In this document: piece by piece, positions 30,991 through 63,181 of the stretch
Layout: each line of letters starts with the position of its first letter
Position numbering within the stretch: position 1 is the stretch's first letter
Assembly (NCBI GenBank): GCA_015143295.1
Contig: CM026551.1
Span: forward strand, 13,627,827 to 13,691,826
From: Tetracentron sinense
Taxonomy: Eukaryota; Streptophyta; Magnoliopsida; Trochodendrales; Trochodendraceae
Direction of reading: 5' to 3'
Length of the DNA stretch: 64,000 bases
Notes under the pieces: model-generated
What the model was told of the DNA's origin: nothing
Seen by the model: the letters and a program-made list of their open reading frames with translations, nothing else
The model's database searches: none
Made by a program: the position numbers and the translations under genes

Positions 30991-31084
30991 TACAATAGTC
31001 ATTTTATTGACATATATAAATGAAAGTCCAACGAAATTTAAATGGGATTTTTAGATTTAAATAAAAATCCCCATTCAAATTTAC

Positions 31085-32428: not shown

Positions 32429-34985
32429 TCGAAGAACAAGCAACGTCATTGTCTCTTTTTGGGATCTTTCTTTCTGATAGACCCATACGTATGGCAGCAG
32501 TTCTGGTTTCTTCTTTTCAGTTACCTCAGTTCAATCGCAAGATCCTTTTTCCTCCCGTTGCCAAGGTATGACACTGGATTACTATCCCCTTTTCGGTTCC
32601 ACTGTTTGCTCCTGCTAAGCTGCAAGCATGGCGAGTTACTCATCTTTATATAATGGTTGTAATTGACCTTGAAGTAATGCACTAGTCTCAAATTCTTCCC
32701 ATCCCTGTCCTTAAACCAGAGATTCTCTGTAGCTTCCTTGGCTAAACCATAAACTCCATACCCCTGATCAATTTTCTATGGCACACATGTACCCTGATGT
32801 TCTTCAATGCCTTCTATTATCTCTGGTGGCTCAAGTAGCCGGGGGGAGTAATATGTTCCAACTTTACTCTTTGGATAGTGCACATTGGAATTTTTGGATT
32901 GCTTGACAGTTATATTTCACATATGTTCGTCATAGCATTATTTTTCTGATTTTCCAGATTCAAATTAGCTGCTCCTTTATCTTTTAAACTCTAATTTTTG
33001 CTATGTTTTTCATGTATGATTGGACCAATTTTACATCAATTCATCTAATGTTAGCAGGCTATAACAGTGGCTTCCTCTATTATTTGTAATTGAGTTATTA
33101 GCCTCCTCTAATTTTTTTTTAAGCCATTTGATCTTATTATTTCTAATATAGTATATTTCTGATATATATTATAGATTACAATTTCATGGAGTCCTTAGCT
33201 TTGCTCTTATTTAAGAATTATACTCTCGAGGACACATAAAGTAAAGCATGTATTATATATGTATGGTTATAATTTAAAACCTTCTACAATGTAATTTCCT
33301 GAAAAACGAAAGTAGGGCCTCAAGTATGTTTATGTTTTGTGAACTTGGTCACTGTAAAGTAAGTGGACTTTTATGGAATTTAATGACTTTCTGAACAAGA
33401 GAAGAATAAACGAAGATGTTTGTAACTTTTATTATTCTCTCTCTATAGATCTTCAAATTATGGTGTACAATTAGTTTAGCTCTTTTGACATATATACAAA
33501 TTATTCACCATCTTACATTGTTGCTTAATTAATTAGAATGCGGTTTCCATAAAATTTATTCTTATTTGAGGTCCCTTATCATGGGAGGCATATGCAAGTA
33601 TGCAACATAGTTCCAAACAGCCTTGATGCACTATTTAACAAGAACTGATATGTTATTTGGATCTTTGATAGATTTCAAATATATTCTTATCATTCGGTAA
33701 ATTCTGTAAAACTTCTTCATGCTTCCACAACTGCTCTCTTATTGAAACTATGAGCTATTGAAGTATGCATGTTTCTTAATTTTTTCTTATGTTTGTTTTA
33801 TTGTTTGAATAAGATCAATGTATTTGATTTGATAAAGCATGAAAAAAATATATTAGTATGAACTATTGAAGTATGTATTTATTTTTGCTTTTTGTTTCTT
33901 CCACTTGTTTGTCTTTTTTTTTATATGTATTTTAAAATAAGATCATCTGATTCTTCAGATAATGAGAAAAAAGGTTTAGAGTTGAGCCTTCAATTGCTTT
34001 CCTTTCCTTCCTCTTTCTTAAGTATGCGATTTTTCAATGCTATTTCCTTTTTAAATTTTACTATTGATGTAATTTTTTCATTGGACAATGTACTTTCATG
34101 CTTTCTTTTTAATGGAATATGCAAGAATGTCTAAAATGATAAATTGGTTTTATTATTTAGTTATTTTCTGTTTTTGTTAATTTATATATGTCATAAAGTA
34201 CTTTCGGTACATGATTGTTCTTGCATATCAAAACAAATATTAAAAATTAGAAATGATATTCTACAAAATTCATACTTTTAGAGCTCCAAAAATGTATGGG
34301 ACCACACGTTACTCCCTCTATTCTCTCACCCATTGTAATATATTTAAATCTTAACAATTCATCTTATAGCTAAAGTGTCTTTTAACTCTCTCTTTCATAT
34401 TTCTCTCCTTTTAGAAACTAAAATGCTTCTTTCTGTCCTATTAAAAATCTGATATTTTCTCTTTCCTCTTTTTATTTAAACCTCTTTAACTCCATACTAT
34501 TCCTCTCTCCCAGAAATTACCCTTTTTTTTTTACTGGAATTATAATTGACCCACTGTTAGCATCAATCATCGACTAGTTGTGAGTGGCGGGGAGTGACAC
34601 TCTTGTAAGACATCACAATTGGGATTAGGTCCCACGACCTCTCTTATAAGAAAGGTCACACCATACCATCATATCCATTCATACCTTGAGATATCGTGTG
34701 AGCCATCATGATATTTGTTTGCCTGCTTGCTTTTGAACTACGACAATTTGATTCCAATCTTACGAGATACATAGGCAATCCTCGAAGGTGTGACCCCCAC
34801 AACTAAAAAGTCATTTTTTATTCTTTTGCATGCTTGATTGTTGTCTTTCTTTAACATGGTTTCTTATTTGAATTTGAGATGTTTCTAATTCCAATTGATG
34901 CATGATAGTTGCTTGTTTGCTTACTTTTATATTTCTTATTTGATGCTTGTTTATAACTTGATTTGATTATCTATTTAGCATATTA
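32429..34985. repeat. Repeat block 'a', first copy
   Basis: Begins GAAGAACAAGCAACGTCATT and is collinear with 39636-42488 (about 95% by eye). It lacks a 427-bp tandem duplication present in the second copy. AT-rich and intron-like, with no sustained coding. Its 3' end (34665-34985) contains a module with CCATTCATACCTTGAGATAT and TCTTACGAGATACATAGGCA that recurs across the right half in both orientations. Confidence 0.8.
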
Positions 34986-35426
34986 TACTACATTAAAGCC
35001 ATGGAAGGGGGAGATATGTGGCAGCTTGGGAGGGGTTTATGTGTATTATTACACATGTCCTATTATTGGTGGTTGGAAAAGAAGGTGGAAGAGAATGTAT
35101 AAGAAATGAGTGTGAGAATATGGTTCAAATCATTGCAACCTTTGCCTTGGCGGGGTTTTCACTTAATTGGATACAAGAAGGTGAGAGAGAGACCGTGAGA
35201 AGACGTATCCCTTGAAAGCTTTTTAACGCTTTGCCTTGGATGATGGGTTTTAGACTTTTAGTTGGTTGTTAGAGGAGGGTGAGAAAAGGGGGAGTGAGGA
35301 GATGGGTCCAATAAGCTAATACTGCTATTATGGAGCTATTCATTAAATTGCCATTTCAAAAATCGAATTGCCAAGCTCATTAATTATACTTATTTTATAT
35401 ACTCTCTTACAATTGTTAAATTGCAG

Positions 35427-35919
35427 GAATTTGGTTCTGTTGGTGTTATAGGTAATCCTATGGGATTTACAAGGAATGTTGGGATCGACATCAAAGATTT
35501 CTTATCAGTTACTGCCAAGGGTATTTTGCGGGTGCACAATATCCATAATATCAAAGCTTGCCAGCAGGATCATGAGACAATCATGCCAGAATTTTGAAAT
35601 TAACTTCTGTTTTGTGGAAACCCTATTGGACTCATTACAAGAATGGCACCAGGGACCACAAGTCTTCTTAGTAATACAATTTATGCCACAAGTGATGCTG
35701 CTGCTCAAGGTAATTCAGTAAAGCTGCACACAAGGTTGTTACATGTCTAATGGCATTGAGGCATCCTCTGGGTGAATTGTAACGGTTGATATTAAGAGAG
35801 GTTTCTACTTTTAGAGTATTGTTGCATTTACTTTTGACGACTAGGCTGTTGCAAAAATGGAGATACAACAGAAGGATATAGCTTCACACAGTAACGGTGT
35901 ATTAAATGAATTTTTAGAG
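35427..35919 (+). pseudogene. VPS13: VPS13-like C-terminal exons (F1)
   Basis: VPS13 proteins are very large bridge-like lipid-transfer proteins at membrane contact sites. Exon 35427-35531 (after TTGCAG) encodes GNPMGFTRNVGIDIKDFLSV, the conserved C-terminal VPS13 segment. Exon 35619-35708 encodes TRMAPGTTSLLSNTIYATSD. Exon 35815-35919 (after TTTTAG, before GTATAT) encodes VAFTFDD, then stop, then AVAKMEIQQKD and GVLNEFLE. The TAG at 35842-35844 replaces a CAG that is intact in the reverse copy at 61651-61755. The acceptor before 35619 reads GTGG, not AG. It cannot make a normal product. Family recognition is strong; the donor gene is not in the window. Confidence 0.85.
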
Positions 35920-36079
35920 GTATATCATCTTCCCATTCAGTAGTTCTCCTCACTTAAGTTCCCTTTACAGTTTTTAACAATCTTTAACCTCTTTACAGTT
36001 TTTAACAATCTTTAACCTCTCTACATCGAAGCTTCACACAACTTATTGATTCTTTGAGTAAATTTAATGCGAAAAATTA

Positions 36080-36375
36080 AAATGTTGTACCTCTAAGAAC
36101 CGTGTCGACATTCATGATCTCTGCTTGTCTGCTTGGTTTTGAAGTATGACAGTTTGATTCCAATCATACGAGATACGAGGCAATAGTCTGTGGTGCAACC
36201 TTCACACAGAAAGGTAAAAAGGCAATTTTTTTTTCTTTTACAGGATTTCTTATTGGAATTTAAAACGTTTCTAGTTTCAAGTGATGCATGATAATTGCTT
36301 GTTTGCCTATTTTTATATTTTTTATTTGACGGTTGTTTACAACTTGATTTGATTATCTCTTTAGCATATTTATGT
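36080..36375 (+). repeat. Dispersed module M (second forward copy)
   Basis: Shares with 34665-34985 and 42180-42488 the order: GATTCCAATCATACGAGATA, AAGTGATGCATGATAATTGC, TTGATTTGATTATCT. The reverse complement of the same module forms part of every 540-bp array unit and recurs at about 54790-54920 and 61340-61480. The style (GAGATACNNAGGCAAT next to a GTGNGACC motif) recalls non-coding parts of Ogre/Tat-type gypsy elements, but that is a weak impression. Confidence 0.55.
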
Positions 36376-37681
36376 TTAAGTCATGGTTTGTTAATACCAT
36401 TTCTCATTAAGAATTATAATTTTTTTTGCAAATTTGTTTAAGGTGAGTTTAGAGAATAGATGACCTCATTTGGGAGGTGTTTATGTGTGCCATGTGTGCC
36501 TAATACCTTCCCTTAGCTCAATCAAATATCTCATCCAAATTTCTATTTTTATCAATCTTATTATTTAACAGATTAGGGTTATTATTCTCCTTCAAAATTA
36601 GAATAAGTGATGGCTCTGTTTTAGTTACTTTCCATTATTTTTTTATTAGGTTTTCTGAATTTTGAATGATGCTAAATCTCATGTCCACGATATGTGTACC
36701 AAAAATGTTTACCTTGATATAAATTTTCTAACTATGTTACCAAAATAAAAAATATGCTATTTAGTTATTATATGGATCGACTCTGAGGTTAAGTTGCATT
36801 ATCTCAAAAAAAAAAAAAACTTATATTAGTTTATTCCTAAGATCATTATTTGCAATTCTTTTTGTGGATCTGTTTTTTTAGATAACTATTTCGTTCATCT
36901 GCAATTCTTTGTTGGTAGTTTTTCTATATATTTCGTTAGCATTATTTGTGTTGCATTTTTTCACTTTTTGGGCCTATTTGTTAATCATTTTCTTCTTCTT
37001 TCTTGTGCTTTTATGTTGCCATTCATTCCTTTGTTGTTTCAAAAGAAGGGTTAATATGTAGGGTGTGTGCTCATATGTTTCATTAAATTTACATTGTGAA
37101 GTATTTTCTTATAGGCACTTGGTGAAGTCGATTGTACTCATATTGATTATTATATTTTTACTTCCTATCTCTTTCTTCAAAATTGCCTATGTAAAATGCT
37201 AATTTTCTTTGAACCTGTTTTTTATGTATTAATGCACTTTAAAACTGCACCATGGGATCTATCTAGAAACTGCGAGGCGGGATTAATCAACTTCTTAAAA
37301 GGGGGTATAAGAATATTCTTGCTATCATTTGAGAAAAGGTTTGTTTTTTAATTTTTTTTTTATTCTTTTCAACAATATTTAATGTCAACCAAAATTTTGA
37401 ATTCTCTACTTACACATAGCTTGTGAAATTTATTAATTTTTATATGTTTTTATTTTCGACAAAAGTGAATCAGAATTAGGAGTTTCAGTTGAAGTTTAAG
37501 AGACGAATGAATTATCAATATAGATACAATCCAACAAAACAAATGAGAAGAGGGTTAGAATCTTTTCATTGCTTTTAACCATTTAACCTTCTTGCATTTA
37601 TCGTGTCTTTTTTTTCTTCTTTTATATTTCATTTTTAGGGTCTTACTTGAAACTTGAAATCAAAGCCTTATAAATTTTTTC

Positions 37682-38130
37682 ATCTTGCTCTTGGCTGCCT
37701 TTCTCTTGTCTATGCTGTTGTGGATGGCTGCACCTTGCTCCTGGCATCACTCACGGTAAGAATTACCCTTTAATTTTATTTCTTTTGTTATCATATGTAT
37801 TTTACTTAGTATTAGATTAGATGTTGGTCTATAAATTAGTTAATTAAAATGTTTGTTAAATCAATATTAATGTGTTTGTCTTTGAATTAGATAAACAGTA
37901 TGTTATCTTGCTCTTGGCTGCCATTCTCTTGTCTATGCTGTTGTGGATGGCTGCACCTTGCTCCTATCATCACTCACGGTAAGAATTACCCTTTTATTTT
38001 ATTTCTTTTGTTATCATATGTATTTTACTTAGTATTAGATTAGATGTTGGTCTATAAATTAGTTAATTAAATGTTTGTTAAATCAATATTAATGTGTTTG
38101 TCTTTAAATTAGATAAATAGTATGTGATGT
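37682..38130. repeat. Tandem duplication, period 233 bp (F1)
   Basis: Copies start at 37682 and 37915 with ATCTTGCTCTTGGCTGCC; each includes an exon-like open stretch (CLSLVYAVVDGCTLLLASL) ending at a donor-like ACGGTAAGA. R1 has the same duplication (59585-59890, period about 223) but R2 has one copy only (53220-53310). Confidence 0.85.
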
Positions 38131-38699
38131 TTGTTAATCTAGATTTTTGATTCGTTATAAGTTAGTGAATAATGTAGCTTTAAGTTAATATATATGTTTT
38201 TTAATTAATAATCTATTTTGATTAATTAGTAATCTGATTATTGTTTATATTACTGATTAATCTGAAGATACGCGCCTGTCCTCCTCTCTAAATGTGCCCC
38301 CCCCTCCACATACCCCCACCCCCAAATAAACTTGCCCTTTCAGTCAGTCCAATCAGATGTTTCTCTTGTTGTTGATTAGAGAGAATAGATTCCGAATCCC
38401 ATCAAAGGATTTTTACTTGGGTTTTTTTTTATCTCTACGTCGTCTTTGATGAAGATTACTGCTCCGCTAATAACCTCATTAAGATGTTCCCCATGAGTAC
38501 CATTTTTATATAATGTTTGGTTTTGCAACTTACACTTATTTCTCTTTTCAAAAGCCTGAAAGAAGATTATTTTTCTCCATCCATACTGACGGAGCAATTA
38601 AGGTGCTTTCTTATGGTTAGTCTTGTGTAGCAGAATAAAATAGTTCAGCTCCGGTTTGCTTAGAAAAAAACTTTTTTTTTTTATATACTTATTTTTCAG

Positions 38700-39635
38700 G
38701 TGCTCAACATCATAGATTCAATTTACCATCTTCTGAATGCTACGAAGGATACAAGTTTTCTTGGCTTCAAAGAAAAAAAAGGAACTTAACCTGAAAAAGG
38801 AGAAAATTCTCAATTACAAGGAGAGAATTTTGGTTCATGTCATTTATTAGAAATTCCTTAATTAATTCTTTACCCACAGGTGTGTAGAATTTTTTTTTTC
38901 ATTTCGCATGTCATCAAATCCAATATGGTAGATTCTGTTTAGTTCAATATAACTAACACATATATGCTTTTTGTAGAGCAAAGGATGGCAAGATTGATGT
39001 GCTGCAGAGTGTGTATCAACAAAAATTTTCCTTCCAAATCCCGTCTTTGCAAATTGATGATTAGTTGTGCAATACACCATATCCTATTATCATGTTCTTT
39101 GATCATGGATGCAGAACCAATTCAACAGGCCATTTGAAAAATGTGGACAATATCTAGAAGATGAAGAATGCAAGTATGATGCACGTTGCTTCTGACAGGT
39201 CAAGTGAACCTATATTCTGCTTAGCTACAGCAAATGGAGGAATAAGGATATCTCATTGGTTTCCTTTGAAAATATAATTATAAGGTGTCCATTCCTATAT
39301 CAAGTGGTTAATTTCATAAGTTTTAGTTAATAATCTTAATAATAATATATTATATTGAATGCTCGCAGATTTGCAACTCTGTGTCTTGACCTTGATGAAG
39401 AAATGATTGTAAGCTTCTTTGACTTTATTAGAAATGTGCTTTCAAGGTTATAGAGCGGAGCCTTATAATGTCTAGATTCCACACTATCCAATGTCTATGG
39501 TGTGGGATTTTTAAAAGAAAGCTTTACTTGTTTCGAATTATAACTGTGTGAACAAAATGAGGCCAACTTATCCCCTAAATGTTTGCATGTTGCTAGAAGA
39601 TCACAGTAGCAGTCCAGCACTGCCTTTAGTAGTTT
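38700..39635 (+). pseudogene. VPS13: VPS13-like upstream exon group (F1), frameshifted
   Basis: Exon 38700-38879 (after TTTCAG, before GTGTGT) encodes VLNIIDSIYHLLNATKDTSF, then loses frame in an A run; it is one base longer than the same exon in R1 and R2 (179 bp). Exon 38977-39284 encodes KIDVLQSVYQQKFSFQIPSL, then a stop, NTPYPI and, after a frame change, WRNKDISLVSFE. Exon 39369-39455 encodes LDLDEEMIVSFFDFIRNVL, then stop. Exon ~39548-39633 encodes PTYPLNVCMLLEDHSSSPAL and is cut at the junction with block a. In plant VPS13 these exons precede the C-terminal group, yet here they lie 3' of it. Stops and frameshifts make it a pseudogene. Confidence 0.75.
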
Positions 39636-42488
39636 CGAAGAACAAGCAATGTCATTGTGTCTTTTTCGGATCTTTCTTTCTGATAGACCCATACATATGG
39701 CAACAATTCTGGTTTCTTCTTTTCGGTTACCTCGTTAATGGCATCTGCGAGGTTTGTTTCTTGGTTAAACCAGAGATTCTCAAATTCTTCCCATCCCTAT
39801 CCTTAAACTAGATATTCTCTGTAGCTTCCTTGGTTAAACCATAAACTCCATACCCCTGATCAAATTTCTATGACACACATGTACCTTGATGTTCTTCAAT
39901 GCCTTCTATTATCTGGCGGCTCAAGAAGGGGGGGGGGGGTAATATGTTCTAACTTTACTCTTTGGATCGTGCACATTGGAATTTTTGGATAGCTTGACAG
40001 TTATATTTCACATATGTTCGTCATAGCATTATTTTTCTGATTTTCCAGATTCAAATTAGCTGCTCCTTTATCTTTTATACTCTAATTTTTGCTATGTTTT
40101 TCAGTGTATGATTGGACCAATTTTACATCAAGTCATCTAATGTTAGCAGGCTATAACAGTGGCTTTCTCTATTATTTGTAATTGAGTTATTAGCCTCCTC
40201 TAATTTTTTTTAAGTCATTTGATCTTATAATTTCTAATATAGTATATTTCTGATATATATTATAGTTTACAATTTCATGGAGTCCTTAGCTTTGCTCTGA
40301 TTTAAGAATTATACTCTCGAGGAAACATAAAGTAAACCACGTATTATATATGCATGGTTATAATTTAAAACCTTCTACAATGTAATATCCTGAAAAACAA
40401 AAGTAGGGCCTCAAGTATGTTTATGTTTTGTGAACTTGGTCATTGTAAAGTAAGTGGACTTTTATGGAATTTAATGACTTTCTGAACAAGAGTAGAACAA
40501 ACGAAGATGTTTGTAACTTTTAGTATTCTCTCTCTATAGATCTTCAAATTCTGGTGTACAATTAGTTTAGCTCTTTTGACATGTATACAAATTATTCACC
40601 ATCTTATATTGTTGCTTAATTAATTAGAATGCAATTTCCATAAAATTTATTCTTATTTGAGGTCCCTTATCATGGGAGGCATATGCAAGTATGCAACATA
40701 GTTCTAAACAGCCTTGATGCACTATTTAACAAGAACTGATATGTTATTTGGATCTTTGATAGATTTCAAATATATTCTTATCATTGGGTAAATTCTGTAA
40801 AACTTCTTCACGCTTCCACAACTGCTCTCTTATTGAAACTATGAGCTAATGAAGTATGCATGTTTCTTAATTTTTTCTTATGTTTGTTTTATTGTTTGAA
40901 TAAGATCAATGTATTTGATTTGATAAAGCATGAAAAAAATATATTAGTATGAACGATTAAAGTATGTATTTACTTTTGCTTTATGTTTCTTCCACTTATA
41001 TTGAAGTATGAACTATGTTGCCTCACCATCTTTTATTGTTGCTTAATTAATTAGAATGCAATTTCCATAAAATTTATTCTTATTTGAGGTCCCTTATCAT
41101 GGGAGGCATATGCAAGTATGCAACATAGTTCTAAACAGCCTTGATGCACTATTTAACAAGAACTGATATGTTATTTGGATCTTTGATAGATTTCAAATAT
41201 ATTCTTATCATTGGGTAAAATCTGTAAAACTTCTTCACGCTTCCACAACTGCTCTCTTATTGAAACTATGAGCTAATGAAGTATGCATGTTTCTTAATTT
41301 TTTCTTATGTTTGTTTTATTGTTTGAATAAGATCAATGTATTTGATTTGATAAAGGATGAAAAAAATATATTAGTATGAACGATTGAAGTATGTATTTAC
41401 TTTTGCTTTATGTTTCTTCCACTTGTTTGTCTTTTTTTTATATGTATTTTAAAATAAGATCATTTGATTCTTTAGATAATGAGAAAAAAAGGTTTAGAGT
41501 TGAGCCTTCAATTGCTTTCCTTTCCTTCCTCTTTCTTAAGTATGCAATTTTTCAATGCTATTTCCTTTTTAAATTTTACTGTTGATGTAATTTTTTTATT
41601 AGACAATGTACTTTCATGCTTTCTTTTTAATGGAATATGCAAGAATGTCTAAAATGATAAATTGGATTTATTATTTAGTTATTTTCTATTTTTTTTAATT
41701 TATATATGTCATGAAGTACTTTCGGTACATGTTTGTTCTTGCATTTCAAAACAAATATTAAAAATTAGAAATGACATTCTACAAAATTCATACTTTTAGA
41801 GCTCCAAAAATGTATGGGACCACACGTTACTCCCTCTATTCTCTCACCCATTGTAATTTATTTAAATCTTAACTATTCATCTTATAGCTAAAGTGTCTTT
41901 TAACTCTCTTTCATATTTCTCTCCTTTTAGAAACTAAAATTCTTCTTTCTGTCCTATTAAAAATCGGATATTTTCTCTTTCTTCTTTTTATTTAAACCTC
42001 TTTAACTCCATACTATTCCTCTCTCCAAGAAATTACCTTTTTTTTTTGCTGGAATTATAATTGACTTACTGTTAGCATCAATCATCGACTAGTTGTGAGT
42101 GGCGGGGAGTGACACTCTTGTAAGACATCACAATTGGGATTAGGTCCCACAACCTCTCTCATAAGAGAGGTCACACCATACCATCATATCCATTCATACC
42201 TTGGGATATCATGTGAGCCATTATGATATTTGTTTGCCTGTTTTCTTTTGACCTACGACAATTTCATTTCAATCTTACGAGATACATAGGCAATCCTCGA
42301 AGGTGTGACCCCCACAACTAAAAAGTCATTTTTTATTCTTTTGCATGCTTGATTGTTGTCTTTCTTTAACATGGTTTCTTATTTGAATTTGAGATGTTTC
42401 TAATTCCAATTGATGCATGATAGTTGCTTGTTTGCTTACTTTTATATTTCTTATTTGATGCTTGTTTTAATTTGATTTGATTATCTAT
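39636..42488. repeat. Repeat block 'a', second copy
   Basis: Collinear with 32429-34985. It starts exactly where the VPS13 exon breaks off (GTAGTT followed by TCGAAGAACAAGC). It contains a 10-G run near 39930 and the 427-bp duplication. The last 60 bp reappear inverted at about 43080-43140. Confidence 0.8.
40597..41410. repeat. Tandem duplication, period 427 bp
   Basis: CACCATCTTNTATTGTTGCT starts at 40597 and again at 41024, followed by near-identical sequence through ATGTATTTACTTTTGC. The first copy of block a has one version only, so this arose after the block was duplicated. Confidence 0.9.
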
Positions 42489-43148
42489 AAACAATAGTTT
42501 CTACGATAAATATCCCTCAAAAGTTGGTCATTTGTTCGACTAAGGTTAATCAGCTCTTTGTAGTCCTAATGTCGACAATCTTCTCCCTTAATCTTGTCAT
42601 TGCCTCCATCATTACTGTAATTTCAACAACCGAATTTAGTTAAAACGAGAACATAGATTAACATGAGAAATTTCAGTTGTAAGGAAGGTACAAATACAAA
42701 CCTTATAAGGCCCATTACCTGTAAAACATTCAAATTCAAATGAGCATTCAACAAAGCTTTAAAAATTATTGAATGATGCGGAGTTGGGATCCGTATATCG
42801 CTCATTGCTTGAAAGCTTCTCCTAGAATAGGAAGCATCTGCCTTCTCCGCCGAAAGATGCTCATAAAAAATAGGTTATGGAATTGAAAGATTACAAATAT
42901 TGACAAACAATCGAAGATTAAGAATTCGCTTGGATTCCAAAGGCAGATTGGGAAGTAAAGGGGTTCTAAGCATTGAGCATGACCCTAAGTTGTTGGTCTA
43001 CACAAATTTGGAATCCAAACTATAAATCTTAATTTGAGACATGGTATTATCAAATGATGCCTTCAAACATAAATATGCTGAATAGAAAATCAAATCGAGT
43101 TATAAGCAAGCATCAAATAAGAAATATAAAATAAGCAAACAACCAACT
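42489..43148. other. Spacer between inverted modules
   Basis: About 530 bp of unrelated AT-rich DNA (42489-43020) separates block a from its own inverted end (43020-43148). Short open frames only. A hairpin with a ~60-bp stem (42430-42488 and 43080-43140) is possible. Confidence 0.5.
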
Positions 43149-43324
43149 GTAATTTTTTGGGTAAACAACAGTGTGTCCCAAATCTTTCAAGACAAGGACT
43201 AGTCCCTTCGGGTGTCCGCACCGATCCATTCAACATTTTCTCTACAGACACCAGGGTAAGTCGAGTGGGAGTTGAACACACAACCACAACGAGCAAACCC
43301 GGGATGGTGGGTGCAGTTAGCTAG
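43149..43324 (-). mobile_element. tRNA-derived SINE, 176 bp
   Basis: Interrupts a module whose uninterrupted form is seen at about 62650 (GCAAACAAGCAACTATCATG). It is flanked by CAACT on both sides (43144-43148 and 43325-43329). On the minus strand it starts CTAGCTAACTGCACCC, has GTGTTCAACTCCCA resembling a pol III B box, and ends GTTTACCCAAAAAATTAC, a plant SINE-type 3' end. Non-coding; needs LINE reverse transcriptase to move. Confidence 0.7.
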
Positions 43325-43529
43325 CAACTATCATGCATCACTTGAAATTGGAAACATTTTAAATTCAAATAAGAAATATGCAAAACAAAGAAAATGACTT
43401 TTTGGTGTGAGGGTCACACCCTTGAGGATTGCCTACATATCTCGTAAGATTGGAATCAAACCGTCGTATTCAAAACCAAGTAGGCAAGCAAAGATCATGA
43501 ATCTTGACATGATATCTCAAGGTATGAAT

Positions 43530-51510: not shown

Positions 51511-51895
51511 TATGACACATAAAAGGATGGATGAGAATGTCATTGCATGAAGCCTGACACGACACCCCAAAGGGAAGTAATCGATGAAAAGTGATCTCAC
51601 TCACACGACTCCCCAGAATCCATATGAGAATATTGTTGCATGAAGTCTAACATAACGTCTCGACATATGATAATACTACTACATGAAGTCTAATGTAGCA
51701 CCTCAGGATATAAGAAAATGTAATTAAAAAACATCTCAAATTCAAACAAGCAGTCATGACAAAAAAGGTCAACAATCAAGTATACAAAGGAAAAAATGAT
51801 TCTTTTGTTGTTAGCGTCGCACCTGTGATTGCCTATGTATCCCGTAAGATGGGAATAAACCGTCATAGTTCAATAGCATACCAGCAAGCAGATTT
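51511..51895. repeat. 540-bp array, continuation after the Helitron
   Basis: Landmark GACACATAAAA at 51514. The distance from the previous landmark (45783) minus the LINE and the Helitron is about 536 bp, restoring the period. The array ends at GCAGATTTCGTA, the same join to the VPS13 block as at 57300. Confidence 0.85.
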
Positions 51896-52074
51896 CGTAA
51901 CTATGTAACATATTAATAAGGGAGATGGTTTGTGGAGCACCAAGTGATAGAAAATATATTCTTCCCAAAGATTGAATTTCTCATTTCTCCTAAAATTATG
52001 GTATCGTGAATAAAGACATTAATTAAGTTCCATGTCAATGAATCACATACCCTCATTGGGTATGCAGTTCAAAT

Positions 52075-52508
52075 GGCCTGCTGAATTGCTTCTGCATTCA
52101 TGATCAAAGAACAGGATAATAGGATATGGTGTATTGCGCAACTGATTATCAATTTGCAAAGACGGGATTTGGAAGTAAAAATTTTTTTGATACATAATCT
52201 GCAGCACATCAATCTTGGTGTCCTTTGCTCATGCAAAAAGTATAAATGTGTTTGTTATATTGAACTAAACATAATCTACCATATTGGATTTGATGACATG
52301 CGAAATAAAAAATAATATTTTGTACACACCTGTGTGTAAAGAATTGATTAAGGAAATTCTGATAAATGACATGAACCAAAATTCTCCCGCGGTAATTGAG
52401 AATTTTCTCCTTTTTCTGGTTAAGCTCCTTTTTTTCTCTAAAGCCAAGAATACATGTATCCTTGGTAGCATTCAAAAGATGGTAACTCGAATCTATTATG
52501 TTGAGCAC
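52075..52508 (-). pseudogene. VPS13: VPS13-like upstream exons (R2)
   Basis: Reading leftwards from 52508 the exon (52330-52508, 179 bp, splice signals TTTTCAG and GTGTGT) encodes LNIIDSSYHLLNATKDTCIL and KKELNQKKEKILNYRGRILV, the best-kept version of this exon in the window. The frame is lost near its end. The next exon (about 52231 down to 52075) keeps the segment ending in SLIMNAEAIQQAI-type sequence but is cut by the deletion junction TTCAAAT at about 52068. Role as in F1; not functional. Confidence 0.75.
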
Positions 52509-54991
52509 CTGAAAAATAAGTATATAAAAAAAACTATTTTTTTTATTAGCAAACCGGAGCTGAAATATTTTATTCTGCTACACAAGACTAACCATAAGAA
52601 AGCACCTTAATTGCTCCTTCAAAATGGATGACAAAAAATAATCTTCTTTCAAGCTTCTGAAAAGAGAAATAAGTGTAAGTTGCAAAACCAAACATTGTAT
52701 AAAAATGGTACACATGGGGAACATCTGAATGAGGTCATTCGTGGAGCAGTAATCTTCATCAAAGACGACATAGAGATGAACAAAATCCAAGTGAAATTCC
52801 TTTGATGGGATTCTGAATCTATACTCTCAAATCAGCAACCAAAGGAACATCGGAATGGACTGACTAAAAGGGGAAGTTTATTTGGGGTTGGGGGGATGGG
52901 GGGGCATTTAGAGAGGAGGAGAGGCGCATATCTTCAGATTAATCAGTAATATAAACAATAATCAGATTACTAATTAAACATAATAGATTATTAATTAAAA
53001 AAAATCCATATTAACTTAAAGCTACATTATTCACTAACTTATAACTAATCTAAAATCTGGATTAACAAACCTAACAAACTGTTTATCTAATTTATAGACA
53101 AACACATTAATATTGATTTAACAAACATTTTAATTAACTAATTTATAGACCAACATCTAATCTAATACTAAGTAAAATACATATGATAACAAAAGAAATA
53201 GAATAAAAGGGAAAGACTTTCTGTGAGTGAAGCCAGGAGCAAGGTGCAGCTATCCACAACAGCATAGACAAGAGAAAGGCAGCCGAGAGTAAGATAAAAA
53301 AAATTATAAGGCTTTGATTTCAAGTAAGACCCTAAAAATGTAATATTAATAAAGAAACAAGATAAACGCCGGAAGATTAAAAGCATTGAAAAGATTCTAA
53401 CCCTGTTCTCATTTATTTTGTTGGATTGTTTCTATATTGATAAGTCATTCGTCTCTTAAACTTTGACTGAAACTCCTACTTCTGATTCACATTTGTCGAA
53501 ACTAAAAACAAATAGAAATAAATAAATTTCAAAACCCTTGTAAAAAGAGAATTCAAAATTTTGATTAACATTAAATATTCTCGAAAAGAATAATAAAAAA
53601 AATTCAAAAACAAACCTTCTCTCAAATGATAGCGAGAATAATCATATATTAATGGCCCCTTTTAAGAAATTTATTAATCCTGCCTCGAAGTTTCCAGATA
53701 GATCCCATGGTGCAGTTTTAAAGTGCATGAGTGCATATAAAATAGGTTCAAAGAAAATAAGCATTTTACATAGGCAATTTTGAAGAAAGAGATAGGAAGT
53801 AAAAATATAATAATCAATATGAGTACAATCGACTTCACCAAGTGCCTATAAGAAAATACTTCACAAAGTATATTTAATGAAACATATAAGCACACACCCT
53901 ACTTAATACTAATTAACCATCCTTTTGAAACAACAAAGGAATAAATGAAAGCATATAAGCACAAGAAAGAAGAAGAAATAGAAGAGCAAATAAATAGATG
54001 AACAAACTAAGACCACTATACATGAACAGGCCCAAGAAGTGAAAAAATTGCAACACAACTGATGCTAACGAAATGTATAGAAAAACTACCAACAAAGAAT
54101 TGCAGATGAACAAAAAAGTTATTTAAAAAAACAGATCAACAAAAAGGGTTGCAAATAATGAACTTAGAAATAAACTACTATAAGTTTTTTTCTTTTTTTT
54201 GAGATAATGCAACTTAAACTCAGAGTCGATCCATATACTAACTAAAAAGCGTACTTTTTTTTTGGTAACATAGTTAAAAATTTATATCAAAGTAAACATT
54301 TTTGATACACATATATTGTGGACATGAGATTTAGCATCATTCAAAGTTGGGAAACCCTAATAAAAAAATAACGGAAAGTAACTAAAAATATGCTTATTCT
54401 AATTTTAAGGGAGAATAATAACCCAATCTTTTAAATAATTAGATTGATAAAAATAGAAATTTGGGTAAGAAATTTGATTGAGCTAAGGGAAGGTGTTAGG
54501 CACCCATAAACACCTACCAAAGGAGGTCATCTATTCTTTAAACTCACCTTACACAAATTTGCAAGCAAAATTATAATTCTTAATTTGAGAAATGGTATTA
54601 ACAAACCATGACTTAAACAGAAATATGCTAAAGAGATAATCAAATCAAGTTGTAAGCAAACATCAAATAAGAAATATAAAAATAGGCAAACAAGAAACTA
54701 TCATGCACCACTTGAAATTAAAAACATTTTAAATTCAAATAAGAAATCATGCAACCGAAAAGAAAAAAAAATTGGCTTTTTACTTTTTTGTGTGAAGGTC
54801 GCACCATTGACTATTGCCTCGTATCTCGTATGATTGGGATTAAACTGTTGTACTTCAAAACCAAGCAGGCAAGCAGAGATGATAAATGTTGATACAATAT
54901 CTCAAGGTATGAATGGATTGTAAGGATAAGATTGAGAATGTCCGGCTCCCCGCACTTGAATTTAAACTTTGATATTATGGATATTGTGCAC

Positions 54992-55096: not shown

Positions 55097-55232
55097 CTGA
55101 AATTTAACAATTGTAAGAGAGTACATAAAAGAAGTATATATTAATGAGCTTGGCAATACGATTTTTGAAATGGAAACTTAATGAATAGCTCCATAATAGC
55201 AGTATTAGCTTATTGGACCCATTGCAACTTCA

Positions 55233-56087
55233 GATCTTCTTAAATGTTTGATCTTGCCACCATCCACTTCTACGATTTATTGATTTAAATAAAAATTACG
55301 AATTTTAAGTTTGTTCTACCTCTAATTCTGGGTTTTTGAAACTCTCCATTATAGCATGCAATCTCCACTATCGAATTCACCTGTCTTAAGGCAAATTTCT
55401 CTGTCATTAATAGATGAGGATGGAAATTTTGTTTGCTAGAGAAAGAAGAATGGTTGGAAATTAAACTATAACAGCTTTGAAGGCCTGTGCCTGGGTTCTT
55501 ACTCCTCATTAGACAACATTGGAATTGAACCACCATTGATACTTAGTCCTATTACTACACTCATGCTACCCATTTCACCAATTTTTTTGGACGAGACAGA
55601 TGCCGATGTGTGAGGACATCAAAAAAACAAAATCCTATATACCCTATTTTGCAAAAACAACACCACCAAAATTTATGCCTGCTGATCCATAGCTTGATGG
55701 GCTCTAATTTCCTCATGAAATCCCGCAAGATTCTTACCTGAAGATAAAAACAGATCCATTGTAGATCTCATTATATTATCGTCTAGCATAGCAACATAAT
55801 TATAAATTCTCTAATTCCTCTCCTTCTAAATGATCCAAAAAATGGCCCCTGGAATCAACAGCCAAAGATTTAACTTATGGTAGTTCCAAGGACGAAACTT
55901 CCAACTCCAAAGAATATCAATGAAAGCCAAGAGAAACACCCAGTTCGTTGCAAAGTTCAATTTCCCTCTACGCTTATCGCATGATTGTGATAAGGTATAA
56001 CACTTCAAGGAATGAGCACATGAAAAACTCAATTTGCATGAATAAATAAAAACAATTTTGGGGCCAACACTAGCAAGTAGCGATAAT
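55233..56087 (-). other. Insert between R2 and the next array, partly LINE-derived
   Basis: Unrelated to the flanking repeats. On the minus strand 56040-55800 encodes NFATNWVFLLAFIDILWSWK and LLIPGAIFWII, then a stop and KERN, which resembles the end of the LINE zf-RVT region (compare GAILWLLWKERN near 47940). As in the other LINE, the tryptophan before KERN is TAG. The remainder (55233-55790) has an 83-codon minus-strand frame (55285-55536) of unknown kind. The LINE call is moderate. Confidence 0.5.
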
Positions 56088-57300
56088 TTGACAGAAAGTC
56101 AACAATAAAGTATACAAAGGGAAAATATGATTTTCTAGTAGTTAGTGTCGCACTTGTGAGGATTGGCTACGTATCCCGTAATATTGGAATCACACCACCG
56201 TAGATAAAAAACAAAAAGGCAAGCAGAGATCATGAAGCTTAGTACAACATCTCAAGCGATGAATGGATGTGATGGGTTAATATATGAATAAGAGTGAGAA
56301 TATCGTTGCATGATGACTAACGCGATACCTTGAGATTGAACGAGAATGTTGTGTGCAAGCATCAAATCTGATATGACACATAAAAGCATTGATGAGAATG
56401 TTGTTGCATGAAGAATGACACGACACTCCAAAGGGAAGGGATTGATGAAAAGCGATCCCTACCCCCAACTAATATGACTCCCCAAAATCCATATGAGAAT
56501 GTTGTTACATGAAGTCTGACACAACATCTCAACATATGAGGATCCTACTGCATGAAGTCTGATGCAGTGCCTCTGGATATAAGAGAATGTAATTAAAAAC
56601 ATCTCAAATTCAAACAGACAATAATAAGATAGAAAGTCAACCATCAAGTATATAAAAGGAAAAAAAATGATTTTTAGTTGTTAGTATCGCACCCATGAGG
56701 ATTGGTTATATATCTCGTAAGATTGAAATCAAACCATCGTAGTTCAAAAACAAACAAGCAAGCAAAGATTAGCCTTACGCAACATCTCAAGCTATGAATT
56801 GATGTGATGGGTTAATATATAGATAAGATTGAGATTATCGTTGCTTGAAGAATGACGCGACACCTTCAGATTGAACGAGTATGTATGTTGTGTCAAAGCA
56901 TCATGTCTAATACGACACATAAAAGCATGGATGAGAATGTCGTTGCATGAAGGCTAACACGACACCCCAAAGGGAAGTAATCGATGAAAAGTGATCTCAC
57001 TCACACGACTCCCCATAATTAATATGAGAATGTTGTTGCATGAAGTCTAACGCAACATCTCGGCATATGAGAATACATCAACATGAAGTCTAATGTAGCA
57101 CCTCGGGATATAAGAGAATGTAATTAATAATATCTCAAATTCAAACAAGCAATTATGACAAAAAAGGTCAACAATCAAGTATACAAAAGGAAAATATGAT
57201 TCTCTTTTTGTTAGTGTTGCACCTGTGAGGATTGCCTATGTATCCCAAAAGATAGGAATAAACAGTCATAGTTCAATAGCATACAAGCAAGCAGATTTCG
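56088..57300. repeat. 540-bp tandem array, second block
   Basis: Landmarks at 56375 and 56914 (spacing 539). Starts at CAGAAAGTCAACAATAAAGT and ends at GCAGATTTCGTAATAAGGGA, joining R1. About two and a quarter units. Confidence 0.85.
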
Positions 57301-57318
57301 TAATAAGGGAGATGGTTT

Positions 57319-57555
57319 GTGGAGCACCAAGTGATAGAAAATATATTGTTCACAAAGATGGAATTTCTCATTTCTCCTAAAGTTATGGTATCACGAAACA
57401 AGAGATTATTTAAGTTCCATGTCAATGAATCACATACCCTCATTGGGTATGCCGTTCAAATCATTGATGGGAATCCCTCAGCAATTCATTGTGAGCTCAT
57501 ATACAGCATGAAGCCTGTTCTCCAGCTATCATGCATGCAGCTAATGGGCTACTAA
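57319..57555 (+). CDS. Unassigned open frame at the array/VPS13 join
   Basis: 78 codons with protein-like composition (FKFHVNESHTLIGYAVQIID and GNPSAIHCELIYSMKP). R2 has the related sequence at 51930-52070 but with stops and then the deletion. It is on the strand opposite to the VPS13 exons, so it may be chance or a piece of another gene. I do not recognise it. Confidence 0.2.
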   Translation: MEHQVIENILFTKMEFLISPKVMVSRNKRLFKFHVNESHTLIGYAVQIIDGNPSAIHCELIYSMKPVLQLSCMQLMGY

Positions 57556-57854
57556 AACCAATCTGCTCATGTTACATATTCCAGAGATTGGAGGTTGACA
57601 CCATGTACTGGTTGTTTCTATGGAAGTTGTATAGATAGGAACTCAAAGTTTACCTAGAGTAATAGATCGAATTAACCCAATTATAATTGTTGGGGCACAA
57701 TCACATCTTTCACTCACAATCACATCTTAAATCAAGTATTATGATAGTATAATCCTTTAAGACAGTAAAAATGGAACAGACAGCTTCTAGATTACTGATT
57801 GATCTCTACAAAGTTAAGGGATCTGAAAGACTAACAAAACAGTTACTATTCACC

Positions 57855-58891
57855 TTAAAGTCAACTTGATGGGGCCAAATCAAATACTTTGACATATATC
57901 TTCTTTTGCCTTCTTGCTAAAAGGAAAACTTGTTGCCAAGGAGCTCCAATCGGAACTATTGAAGGTAGTGCTGGACTGTTGCTGTGATCTTCTAGCAACA
58001 TGCAAACATTTAGGGGATAAGTTGGCATCAATTTTGTTCATATAGTTATAATTCTAAACAAGTAAAGCTTTCTTTTAAAAATCCCATACCATAGACAATG
58101 GGCAGTGCAGAATCTGGACATGATAAAGCTCCGCTCTATAACCTTGAAATCATAGTTTTAATAAAGTCAAAGAAGCTTACAATCATTTCTTCATCAAAAT
58201 CAAGACGCAGAGCTGCTAATTTACGAGCATTCAATATAATATATTACCATTAAGATTATTAACTAATACTTATGAAGATAAACACTTGATGTAGGAATGG
58301 ACACCTTATAATTATATTTTCAAAGGAAACCAATGAGATATCCTTATTCCTCCAGTTGTTGTAGCTATGCAGAATATAGATTCACTTGAGCTGTCAGAAG
58401 CAACGTGCATCATACTTGCATTCTTGATCTTCTAGATATTGTCCTTATTTTTCAAATGGCCTGTTGAATTGGTTCTGCATTCATGATCAAAGAACATGAT
58501 AATAGGATATGGTGTATTGCACAACTAATCATCAATTTGCAAAGACGGGATTTGGAAGTAAAATTTTTGTTGATACACACTTTGCAGCACATCAATCTTG
58601 GCATCCTATGCTCATGTAAAAAGTATATATGGGTTTGTTATATTGAACTAAACAGAATCTACCATATTGGATTTGATGACATGCGAAATGAAAAAAAAAA
58701 ATTTGTACACACCTGTGGGTAAGAATTAGTTAAGGAATGTCAGATAAATGACATGAACCAAAATTCTCTCCCTATAATTGAGAATTTACTCCTTTTTCTA
58801 GTTAAGTTCCTCTTTTTTCTCTGAAGCCAAGAAAACTTCTATCCTTCATAGCATTCAGAAGATGGTAAATTGAATCTACGATGTTGTGCAC
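57855..58891 (-). pseudogene. VPS13: VPS13-like upstream exon group (R1)
   Basis: Minus-strand exons in order: 58891-58713 (YHLL segment, 179 bp), about 58613-58305 (QQKFSF segment region, decayed), about 58226-58141 (KLAALRLDFDEEMIVS) and about 58040-57855. The last encodes PTYPLNVCMLLEDHSNSPAL, then VPIGAPWQQVFLLARRQKKI and YVKVFDLAP, a well-conserved VPS13 stretch that F1 has lost. One missing A after GCCCC shifts the frame before the donor AAG/GTGAAT. Stops in the second exon make it a pseudogene. Confidence 0.75.
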
Positions 58892-59584
58892 CTGAAAAAT
58901 AAGTATATAAAAAAAAAAAGTTTTTTTATTAGCAAACCGGTGCTGAACTATTTTATTTTGCTACACAAGACTAACCATAAGAAAGCACCTTAATTGCTCC
59001 TTCAGTATTGATAGAGAAAAATAATCTTCTTTCAGGCTTCTGAAAACAGAAATAAGTGTAAGTTGCAAAACCAAACATTATAAAAAAATGGTACTCATGG
59101 GGAACATCTAAATGAGGTCATTAACGGAGCAGTAATCTTCATCAAAGACGACATAGAGACAAACAAAACCCAAGTAAAAATCCATTGATGGGATTCTGAA
59201 TCTATTCTCTCTAATCAACAATAAGAGGAACATCTGATTGGACTGACTGAAAGGGGAAGTTTATTTGGGGGGGGCGCATTTAGAGAGGATGAGACATGCG
59301 TATCTTCAGATTAATCAGTAATATAAACAATAATCAGACTACTAATAAATCAAAATAGATTATTAATTAAAATCTATATATATTAACTTAAAGCAACATT
59401 ATTCACTAACTTATAACGAATCAAAAATCTAGATTAACAAACATAACATACTGTTTATCTAATTTAAAGACAAACACATTAATATTAATTTAACAAACAT
59501 TTAATTAACTAATTTATAGACCAACATCTAATCTAATACTAAGTAAAATACAAACGATAACAAAAGAAAAAAATAAAAGGGTAA

Positions 59585-59890
59585 TTCTTACCGTGAGTGA
59601 TGCCAGGAGCAAGGTGCAGCCATCCACAACAGCATAGACAAGAGAAAGGCAGCCGAGAGCAAGATAACATACATTTTATCTAATTTAAAGACAAACACAT
59701 TAATATTGATTTAACGAACATTTTAATTAACTAATTTATAGACCAACATCTAATCTAATACTAAGTAAAATATATATGATAACAAAAGAAATAAAATAAA
59801 CAGGTAATTCTTACCGTGAGTGATGCCAGAAACAAGGTGCAGCCATCCACAACAGCATAGATAAGAGAAAGGCAGCCGAGAGCAAGATAA
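59585..59890. repeat. Tandem duplication, period about 223 bp (R1)
   Basis: Reverse-complement equivalent of 37682-38130: GTGAGTGATGCCAG starts at about 59593 and 59816, and the copies end AGCAAGATAA at about 59666 and 59890. Confidence 0.85.
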
Positions 59891-61650
59891 AAAAAATTAT
59901 AAGTTTTAAGTTTGAAGTAAGACGCTAAAAATGAAATATAAAAGAAGAAAAAAAAGAAACAAGATAAACGCAAGAAGGTTAAATGGTTAAAAGCAATGAA
60001 AAGATTTTAACCCTCTTCTCATTTGTTTTGTTGGATTGTATCTATATTGATAATTCATTCGTCTCTTAAACTTCGACTGAAACTCCTAATTCTGATTCAC
60101 TTTTGTTGAAACTAAAAACATATAAAAGTAAATAAATTTCAAAAGCTATGTGTAAGTAGAGAATTCAAAATTCTGATTGACATTAAATATTCTTGAAAAG
60201 AATAATAAAAAATTCAAAAACAAACCCTTTCTCAAATGATAGCAAGAATATTTTTATATCCCCTTCTAAGAAGTTGATTAATCCCGCCTCGCAGTTTCCA
60301 GATAGATCCCATGGTGTAGTTTTAAAGTGCATGAGTACATATAAAATAGGGTCAAAGAAAATTAGCATTTTACATAGGCAATTTTGAAGAAAAAGATAGG
60401 AAGTAAAAATGTAATAATCAATATGAGTACAATCGACTTCACCAAGTGCCTGTAAGAAAATACTTCACAATGTAAATTTAATGAAATATAAGCACACACC
60501 CTACATATTAACCGTTCTTTTAAAACAACAAAGGAATGAATGAAAGCATATAAGCACAAGAAAGAAGAAGAAAAGGAATAACAAATAGGCCCAAAAAGTG
60601 AAAAAATGCAACACAAATGATGCTAACGATATGTATAGAAAAACTACCAACAAAGAATTACAGATGAACAAAATAGTTATTTAAAAAAACCGATCTAGAA
60701 AAAGAATTGCAAATAATGATCATAGGAATAAACTAATATAAGTTTTTTTTTTTTTTGAGATAATGCAACTTAAACTCAGAGTCAATCCATATACTAACTA
60801 AATAACATATTTTCTTTATTTTGGTAACATAGTTAGAAAATTTATATCAAGGTAAACATTTTTGGTACACATATATTGTGGACATGAGATTTAGCATCAT
60901 TCAAAATTCAGAAAACCTAATAAAAAAATAATGGAAAGTAACTAAAACAGAGCCGTCACTTATTCTAATTTTGAGGGAGAATAATAACCCTAATCTTTTA
61001 AATAATAAGATTGATAAAAATAGAAATTTGGGTGAGATATTTGATTGAGCTAAGGGAAGGTATTAGGCACACATAAACACCTACCAAATGAGGTCATCTA
61101 TTCTCTAAACTCACCCTACACCAATTTGCAAACAAAATTATAATTCTTAATTTGAGAAATGATATTAACAAACCATGACTTAAACATAAATATGCTAAAG
61201 AGATAATCAAATCAAGTTGTAAACAAGCATCAACTAAAAGATATAAAAATAAGCAAACAAGCAATTATCATGCATCACTTGAAACTAGAAACGTTTTAAA
61301 TTCAAATAATAAATCCTGTAAAAGAAAAAAAATTGGCTTTTTACCTTTTTGTGTGAAGGTTGCACCGCGGACTATTGCCTCATATCTCGTATGATTGGAA
61401 TCAAACTGTCGTACTTCAAAACCAAGCAAGCAAGGAGAGATCATGAATGTCGAGACGATATCTCAAGGTATGAATGGAATGTAAGGATAAGATTGAGAAT
61501 GTCCTGCTCCTCGCATTTTAATTTTTCGCATTAAATTTACTCAAAGAATCAATAAGTTGTGTGAAGCTTCGATGTAGAGAGGTTAAAGATTGTTAAAAAC
61601 TGTAAAGGGAACTTAAGTGAGGAGAACTACTGGATGGGAAGATGATGCAC

Positions 61651-62137
61651 CTCTAAGCATTCATTTAATACACCATTGCTGTGTGAAGCGATACCCTTCT
61701 GTTGTATCTCCATTTTTGCAACAGCCTGGTCGTCGAATGTAAATGCAACAATACTCTAAAAGTAGAAACCTCTCTTAATATCAACCGTTAGAATTCACCC
61801 AATGCCATTAGACATTTAAACAACCTTGTGTGCAGCTTTACTGAATTACCTTGAGCGGCAGCAACACTTATGGCATAGACTGTATTACTAAGAAGACTAG
61901 TGGTGGTCCCTGGTGCCATTCTTGTAATGAGTCCAGTAGGGTTTTGACAAAACAGAAGTTAATTTCAATATTGTGACATATGATTGTCTCATCATCCTGC
62001 TAGCAAGCTTTGATATTATGGATATTGTGCACCCGCAAAATACCCTTCGCAGTAACTAATAAGAAATCTTTGATGTCGATCCCAACATTCCTTGCAAATC
62101 CCATAGGATTACCTATAACACCAGCATAACCAAATTC
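61651..62137 (-). pseudogene. VPS13: VPS13-like C-terminal exons (R1)
   Basis: Minus-strand exons: 62137-62033 (GVIGNPMGFARNVGIDIKDF, 105 bp), about 61942-61853 (APGTTSLLSN region) and 61755-61651 (105 bp; VAFTFDDQAVAKMEIQQKG, GVLNECLE). The last keeps the CAG codon that is TAG in F1. As in F1 the acceptor of the middle exon is damaged (GTCAAAAC). The linking intron-like DNA matches F1. Confidence 0.85.
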
Positions 62138-62619
62138 CTGCAATTTAAGAATTGTAAGAGAGTATATAAAACAAGTATAATTAATGAGCTTGGCAATACG
62201 ATTTTTGAAATGGAAATTTAATGAATAGCTCCATAATAGCAGTATTAGCTTATTGGACCCATTCTCCTCACTCTCCCTTTTCTCACCCTCCTCTAACAAC
62301 CAACTAAAAGTCTAAAACCCATAATCCAAGGCAAAGCGTTAAAATGCTTTCAAGGGATACGTCTTCTCACGGTCTCTCTCTCACCTTGTTGTATCTAATT
62401 AAGTGAAAACCCCGCCAAGGCAAAGGTTGCAATGATTTGAACCATATTGTCACACTCATTTCTTATACGTTCTCTTTCACCTTCTTCTCCAACCACCAAT
62501 AATAGGACTTGTGTAATAATACACATAAACCCCGCCCAAGCCGCCACATATCCTCCCCCTTCCATGGCTCTAATGTAGTATAATATGCTAAATAGATAAT
62601 CAAATGAAGTTATAAACAA

Positions 62620-63181
62620 GCATCAAATAAGAAATATAAAAGTAAGCAAACAAGCAACTATCATGCATCAATTGGAATTAGAAACATCTCAAATTAAAAT
62701 AAGAAACCATGCTAAAGAAAGACAACAATCAAGCATGCAAAAGAAAAAAAAAAGACTTTTTAGTTGTGAGGGTCACACCTTCGAGGATTGCCTATGTATC
62801 TCGTAAGATTGGAATCAAGTTGTCATAGTTCAAAAGCAAGCAGGCAAGCAAAAATCATGATGGCTCACACGATATCTCAAGGTATGAATGCATATGATGG
62901 TATGGTGTGACCTCTCTTATGAGAGAGGTCGTGGGACCTAATCCCAATTGTCATGTCTTACAAGAGTGTCACTCCCCGCCACTCACAACTAGTCGATGAT
63001 TGATGCTAACAGTAGGTCAATTATAATTCCAGCAAAAAAAAAGGCAATTTCTGGGAGAGAGGAATAGTATGGAGTTAAAGAGGTTTAAATAAAAAGAGGA
63101 AAGAGAAAATATCAGATTTTAAATAGGACAGAAAGAAGCATTTTAGTTTCTAAAAGGAGAGAAATATGAAAGAGAGAGTAA
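62620..63181 (-). repeat. Inverted 3' part of block a (R1 end)
   Basis: Reverse complement of about 34985 down to 34400, including GAGTGTCACTCCCCGCCACT. It ends abruptly at GAGAGAGTAA, where R3 begins. Confidence 0.8.

Follow-up and report, generated by a model that had tools for sequence, protein, structure and literature searches.

Introduction

How can the exons of a gene come to lie in an order that the gene itself does not have? This question is raised by a stretch of 64,000 nucleotides from Tetracentron sinense (contig C1, positions 13627827-13691826; hereafter the window), which carries broken copies of the gene VPS13 whose C-terminal exons lie 5' of exons that should precede them. An initial annotation, made from the sequence alone, proposed that such a permuted order could come from a tandem duplication with both of its ends trimmed or from the reintegration of a circular DNA, and that the composite was then amplified in both orientations, flanked by the same tandem array. 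With this in mind, we compared the window with intact plant VPS13 proteins, with a likely parent gene and with related loci within one 1.16-Gb assembly of this species, whose genome is the subject of published papers (PMC7709256, PMC8810787). In the following, C followed by a number denotes a contig, unless it is called a block.

Results

Three copies of VPS13 are permuted

The exons were mapped by tblastn of intact VPS13 from Nelumbo (P0121), Macadamia (P0133) and Macleaya (P0150) against the window, and then exon by exon. Residue numbers are those of Nelumbo VPS13, where block B covers residues ~2794-2960, block P 3019-3067 and block C 3149-3257. Sum E-values are as low as 5e-57, hence the matches are not due to chance. 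In all three copies, F1 on the plus strand and R1 and R2 on the minus strand, the C-terminal exons (3149-3257) are found 5' of exons that belong before them (from 2794). In F1, block C1 (35430-35919, P0133 matches) precedes block B1, in which the exon-by-exon comparison shows KPERR, YHLL, QQK and LDEE pieces. Region R, read on the minus strand, comprises blocks C3 (62134-61651; P0121 residues 3152-3257), B3 (59042-58357; P0133 and P0150 matches), P3 (58016-57870; P0121 residues 3019-3067), D, C2 (55102-54992; P0121 residues 3149-3185) and B2 (52659-52070; P0121 residues 2794-2930), i.e. C-[B-P-D-C]-B. It contains two C-B blocks, R1 and R2, and B3-P3-C2 between them follow the native order. The permuted order first described for F1 and R1 is thus borne out against intact plant VPS13 and extends to R2, yet the exon list given for these copies has to be amended: PIGAPWQQ is present in R1 only, F1 being cut at its start, and FDDQ is present in F1 but carries a stop (FDD-stop-AVAKME). 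Stops also interrupt exon pieces of R1 and R2.

The likely parent gene has the native order

The likely parent lies on C17 at ~1.0695-1.0773 Mb, and a 10-kb stretch of this contig (L041) was compared. Its exons follow the native order KPERR, YHLL, next piece, QQK, RNKD, LDEE, PIGAP, 3102-3151, GFARN, TTSLL and FDDQ, succeeded, still in native order, by the GLTG and ~3280 exons (residues ~3256 and ~3280); in terms of blocks this is B-L-P-exon 3102-3151-D-C. All 13 exon pieces tested align to the parent without stops. The alignment to this likely parent, the check that had been suggested, therefore returns a normal exon order, and a permuted order in the intact gene itself, sought in these 10 kb, was not found.

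Block D of the window corresponds to the parent intron before GFARN, and Pd to the intron after PIGAP, at 75-88% identity; a copy on contig C1196 likewise retains parent introns. Since introns are retained, the copies are not retro-copies, and an origin as processed pseudogenes is ruled out. What is found instead are the features of a tandemly duplicated, unprocessed pseudogene, namely introns, head-to-tail units with a shared joint beside units in native order, and reading frames that are disabled in the copies but free of stops in the parent, as far as its 10 kb show. The blocks that accompany the VPS13 pieces, A, Au and Cup on one side and LinkU, B5 and Bm on the other, were without a match in the parent stretch (10 kb; E 1e-5).

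Native and permuted steps stand in one chain

On C1196 (19.9 kb fetched), the minus strand begins with A-Au-Cup, followed by a unit that, apart from gaps and an insertion, is colinear with positions 897-7185 of the parent stretch, from B through P, Pd, exon 3102-3151 and D to C. Behind this first unit lie LinkU-B5-Bm, a second B that is cut after its first exons, and another LinkU-B5-Bm; the last part consists of exon 3102-3151, D and a C that continues into parent 7351 and 8220-8677. A native-order unit, a permuted joint and parts of further units are thus adjacent on one contig. Because C1196 and R both hold native and permuted steps in a single chain, we consider it highly likely that the permutation reflects a head-to-tail tandem duplication trimmed by deletions, which is the first of the two routes originally proposed; the order in the parent, the C1196 chain and the monophyly of the joint described below all support it.

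The second route, a circular DNA with a VPS13 piece that was re-opened elsewhere and reintegrated, would also place C before B. Indeed, an isolated F1 block (C-linker-B) would look circular-derived, and a linker at the joint is permissible. Chains in which native and permuted steps alternate, as on C1196 and in R (whole units being read in the window and C1196 only), argue against it, as does the alternation of C-B and B-C neighbours in the genome clusters; a single circular permutation of the source was looked for, and these mixed chains were found instead. With tandem units side by side on C1196 and in R, a circle is unnecessary, and we regard it as very improbable.

Genome-wide, the best 40 of 46 candidates for block C and the best 40 of 168 for block B were scored, so that the counts below are lower bounds. 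All 44 C matches were used and merged to 40 places. For B, 17 of 61 matches were excluded (fifteen of ~225 bp from the internal duplication, and two of 135 and 50 bases) and the remainder merged to 40 places. On the same strand and within 20 kb, C has B as its next neighbour in 24 of the 40 places, at a distance of 1.27-1.98 kb in 22 of these 24, and B is in turn followed by C in 26 of its 40 places, 2.1-18.4 kb away. The tight C-B and loose B-C spacing fits one inherited joint. The C places are clustered, on C1 (13.66-13.84 and 56.9-58.1 Mb), C7 (12.52-12.58 Mb), C17 and three small contigs.

The joint between block C and the linker most likely arose once

When F1, R1 and R2 are aligned, the crossover from C to the linker is identical, following AAATTNAANTG and the next bases, even though at this joint F1 lacks ~60 bp of linker and R2 the remainder of C. 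In the C1196 unit that continues into the VPS13 intron, ~12 bases after AAATTNAANTG are still parent-like, and the break therefore lies just after them.

Sequences were fetched for the best 30 C and the best 10 B matches. The linker follows C in 24 of the 30 C loci, beginning with LinkU in 21 and directly with B5 in 3, and B5 is present within the locus in 23 of these 24; the remaining six are the parent and five loci with D upstream and without linker. A maximum-likelihood tree on 411-505 bases per C locus, with the parent as outgroup, unites the 24 linker-bearing loci in one clade (ultrafast bootstrap, 100), to which the five linker-free loci form the sister clade (99). Since the linker-bearing loci are monophyletic, the joint most likely arose once, as judged from these alignments, and its recurrence, for which the initial annotation had advised a search, agrees with a composite amplified as a unit. 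The same annotation expected break points to agree among copies. This applies to the inner C-to-linker joint of F1, R1 and R2 but not to the outer breaks, which vary (A-C versus D-C; B-A at 39638 versus 63182).

These loci also bear on whether collapsed or chimeric contigs might have scrambled a normal gene. The region is highly repetitive and one assembly was searched, yet the same joint is seen at 24 of 30 loci that mostly lie several per cent apart, on C1, C7 and two small contigs, and on C17 the parent exons follow their normal order. An assembly artefact is accordingly the least probable of the explanations considered, and extremely so.

Outer joints differ among copies

In F1, A-Au-Cup touches C directly. 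Both sides of this joint exist unjoined on C1196, where Cup runs on (GAGGAGA-CGTGC) and D runs into C (TTGCA-ATGGGTCC); the F1 joint, GAGGAGATGGGTCC, has one shared base. A-Au-Cup lies upstream of C in 17 of the 30 loci, and D in 13, parent included. The A-C join of F1 fits a separate deletion, common to the 17 loci, and the loci with D are mostly basal in the tree. At its other end, F1 breaks off after the first 61 of the 161 bases of the P block, at the start of PIGAPWQQ, and is joined to a second A copy (39635-39638); this B1-A2 joint occurs in four of the ten fetched B loci, window included, and differs from the B4-A3 joint at 63182. The joint of B2 with the array has 7 bp, ATTTGAA, in common with the sequence after P3, and the LDEE and P of R1 are missing. 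Altogether, some copies lack B to D between Cup and C, some everything from P onward in front of A, and some LDEE plus P in front of the array; the missing segments account for C standing before B in F1.

Several observations weigh against a plain tandem duplication. No same-strand neighbour lies within 20 kb at 13 of the 40 C and 8 of the 40 B places, and six B-to-B and three C-to-C neighbour pairs occur. In one locus, L008, LinkU is not continued into B5 within the locus. Two loci with D, L005 and L009, are nested among those with A-Au-Cup, so losses, conversion or re-joining also happened. Above all, the linker LinkU-B5-Bm is not explained by tandem duplication as such: the left flank of the first C1196 unit is A-Au-Cup plus ~400 bp rather than B5-Bm, and either an insertion at the joint or a loss of flank is needed. 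We considered whether the first joint arose by exchange between arrays, an attractive idea since LinkU is array-like, and rejected it, as the right flank of the last C1196 unit is VPS13 intron rather than array; to go by these flanks, array exchange would account for later copying only.

Organization of the window

On the plus strand, block A1 (32429-34660) begins inside an exon (32422-32565) common to several T. sinense gene models. It is followed by the array-like unit Au with Cup (34661-35301), which is joined directly to block C1 (35302-36087; GFARN 35430-35531, TTSLLSN 35619-35708, FDDQ 35818-35919, Ctail). The linker at the tandem joint (36088-38318) comprises the partly deleted, array-like LinkU, B5 and a Bm with an internal duplication of 223 bp. 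Block B1 (38319-39638; KPERR, YHLL, QQK and LDEE) shows homology to the parent from ~38497, and A2 (39635-42488) is joined to its cut exon. A2 has an internal direct duplication of 427 bp at 99% identity (40596-41424), recent-looking and absent from A1.

All that follows is on the minus strand. An array (42999-46256), opposite in orientation to F1, continues after R2 (51512-52074), where it is joined to B2. R2 consists of B2 with its linker (52068-54963) and the GFARN exon as all that is left of block C2 (54964-55223); next to it lies D (55223-56078). Between D and Pd, an array of ~2.2 units (56090-57295) takes the place of the parent 3102-3151 exon. R1 holds P3, the PIGAPWQQ exon, with the Pd intron (57461-58016), the linker (LinkU, B5, Bm) with B3 (58016-61513) and block C3 with the GFARN, TTSLLSN and FDDQ exons (61514-62263); upstream of C3 lie the end of A3, Au and Cup (62264-63182), and the B5 of a further unit, B4, is joined to A3 (63182-64000).

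Inverted copies and the array

The nearest inverted partner arm of F1 is C1:13705925-13694421; its three overlapping pieces align in reverse to window 29424-40997, with identities of 96.0-98.4%. F1-type units therefore occur on both strands of a large inverted repeat (~11.5 kb), whose partner arm lies just outside the window. The initial annotation had taken F1 and R1 as the inverted pair; the inversion is real but larger, and a direct pairing of F1 with R1 is not supported, closer copies existing elsewhere. In the region used for the tree, the Kimura two-parameter distance (K2P) from F1 is 0.031-0.035 to its nearest loci, L002, L011 (C7) and L003 (C794), and that from R1 is 0.021 to L018, versus 0.065 between F1 and R1. 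Over whole blocks, K2P is 0.049 between blocks C1 and C3, 0.064 between B1 and B3, and 0.075-0.104 for R2 in B. A single 258-base stretch, where blocks C1 and C3 differ by only 0.036, counts against this separation of F1 and R1.

Likewise, the view that the same tandem array flanks both copies could not be maintained. The array beside F1 (43.0-46.3 kb) reads as one array with that after R2, interrupted by a long interspersed nuclear element (LINE) and a Helitron-like insert, and is opposite to F1; as one interrupted array, it is not a separate one flanking F1. The arrays at 43000-46256, 56090-57295 and 51512-52074 have a unit of 540-555 bp with degenerate shorter repeats, a part of the unit being reminiscent of Ogre/Tat retrotransposon sequences. 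The LINE piece (46262-48250, plus strand) encodes a reverse transcriptase and a zf-RVT domain and bears a short A tail. The Helitron-like insert (48308-51510, minus strand) starts with TTACTACTAATT rather than the usual TC and ends in an imperfect hairpin and CTAG, between A and T; once the insert is taken out, the joined flanks can be aligned with uninterrupted array units (at best 89.7% identity over 184 bp).

Other gene pieces and gene models

Pieces of further genes accompany the composite. A chimeric segment upstream of A1 (31040-32428, plus strand) contains window 31458-31948, which matches C5:41916446-41916926 at 98%, window 32019-32357, which matches C24:18103964-18104302 at 98%, and a SERK kinase-like scrap at 31977-32021 reading NAVLQSWDPTLVNPS (near-exact, at a weak E of 0.03-0.07). 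The stretch 31040-32560 is a recent-looking chimera and recurs at C1:13702785 and C16:21086753 at 99%. An alpha-tubulin scrap (E 0.003) is found in a sister gene model, P0007. Further upstream, at 4538-30171, Ty1/copia coding sequence is surrounded by large direct duplications, one of 11.4 kb (88%) and one of 2.7 kb (98%).

Such a company of SERK-like, C5, C24 and alpha-tubulin pieces is what one would expect if a Helitron- or Pack-type transposon had captured VPS13, SERK and other pieces independently, in arbitrary order, and had made the copies by transposition; a block A piece without a VPS13 block on C16 (96-99%) also agrees with this. In the 10 kb of C16, block A extends to ~window 34387, and no VPS13 match was obtained. 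Against capture, B and C trace back to a single uninterrupted segment of the parent and keep its order on C1196, and the C matches (40 of 46 candidates scored) are concentrated in a few places rather than scattered. Hairpin-CTRR candidates at 34625, 42140 and 62941 lie inside longer similarity among three copies, which would speak against a Helitron as the vehicle of the VPS13 blocks, although the scan was a weak one that covered the window only and missed the imperfect hairpin of the 48308-51510 insert. These limited tests revealed neither a mobile vehicle nor element ends, a link to a transposase or scattered insertions. We thus consider transposon capture unlikely and tandem duplication with trimming the better account.

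Outside the VPS13 clusters, B5 is found at C1:60.39 Mb only, at 75% (best 40 of 291 candidates). There, L044 (C1:60390000-60396999) shows two successive B5-Bm-like stretches, behind which come the terminal portion of block A and a portion of Au, and VPS13 gave no match. The presence of B5-Bm, the A end and Au without VPS13 suggests that the flanking blocks are an older repeat, and a repeat of the L044 type is a possible source of the linker.

Annotated T. sinense proteins align to the window exon by exon, and the composite appears to have entered the gene annotation. HHK36_000656 (P0002) matches minus-strand pieces of R1 and R2 and 42616-42569 (100%), and its first exon also matches 32422-32565 on the plus strand (100%). 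At least 16 annotated T. sinense proteins match window blocks (13 of 46, plus 3 more among 40 protein matches) and look like chimeric gene models made from such fragments. A Pfam search with the VPS13 and upstream fragments and 10 of the 16 chimeric proteins gave nothing above curated cut-offs, Rfam gave no match at gathering scores, and PDB none for P0042 and P0040.

Discussion

We propose the following history. An intron-bearing piece of T. sinense VPS13 would have been joined to non-VPS13 blocks, A-Au-Cup and LinkU-B5-Bm. Such pieces are now seen head to tail, the Ctail (3' part) of one joined via LinkU-B5-Bm to the B (5' part) of the next, and at least 24 loci have the C-to-linker joint. 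Segment differences among copies are probably deletions, and the joints may be end-joining events, in line with an overlap of 1 and of 7 bases in the two cases that are comparable with both parents. The composite is now present at dozens of places, and its later copies may have arisen by unequal exchange and segmental duplication. The copies carry stops, and their existence can be explained without invoking a function.

In the open-access literature, we found no paper on VPS13 together with Tetracentron, and the sole match for VPS13, gene fragments, plant and tandem duplication was, by its title, on leukaemia. Head-to-tail amplification with end-joined chimeras is already known, and the T. sinense case is unusually well documented. 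Maize P1-wr is a head-to-tail array of eleven nearly perfect 12-kb repeats built from a single gene; the chimeric genes that border it are ascribed to non-homologous end joining, and transposition events occurred in the region (PMC2686159). The window resembles P1-wr in its head-to-tail, gene-derived repeats and end-joined chimeras; unlike P1-wr, the T. sinense copies are broken, several per cent diverged, and spread over several clusters in both orientations. Helitrons, Pack-MULEs and Pack-CACTA elements unite and multiply fragments of several host genes by transduplication, as described in a review (PMC13317346). Fragments of several host genes are united and multiplied in T. sinense as well, but the multiplied unit is clustered and, in our limited tests, no element ends were found.

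A third parallel is with primate segmental duplications. Core duplicons in primates give rise to mosaic duplications, nested, inverted and interspersed, from repeatedly duplicated composites, and the T. sinense blocks are similarly nested, inverted and interspersed and derive from earlier composites. It is conceivable, though we doubt it, that the VPS13-linker composite, or the older VPS13-free B5-Bm-A-Au relative at C1:60.39 Mb, is itself a duplication-prone core. Equally speculative is the idea that such a core recruits unrelated gene fragments (VPS13, SERK, C5, C24) and, needing no transposase, gives rise to duplications that are clustered, inverted and interchromosomal.

In summary, a scrambled exon order can be derived stepwise from ordinary tandem duplication and deletion, and a single genome preserves the likely parent together with both an early colinear state and later, derived ones. 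Given their chimeric look, the at least 16 annotated T. sinense proteins should not be taken as genes at face value, nor as a sign that the VPS13 family has expanded. If the composite were indeed a duplication-prone core, it would provide a testable plant counterpart of the primate core duplicons.

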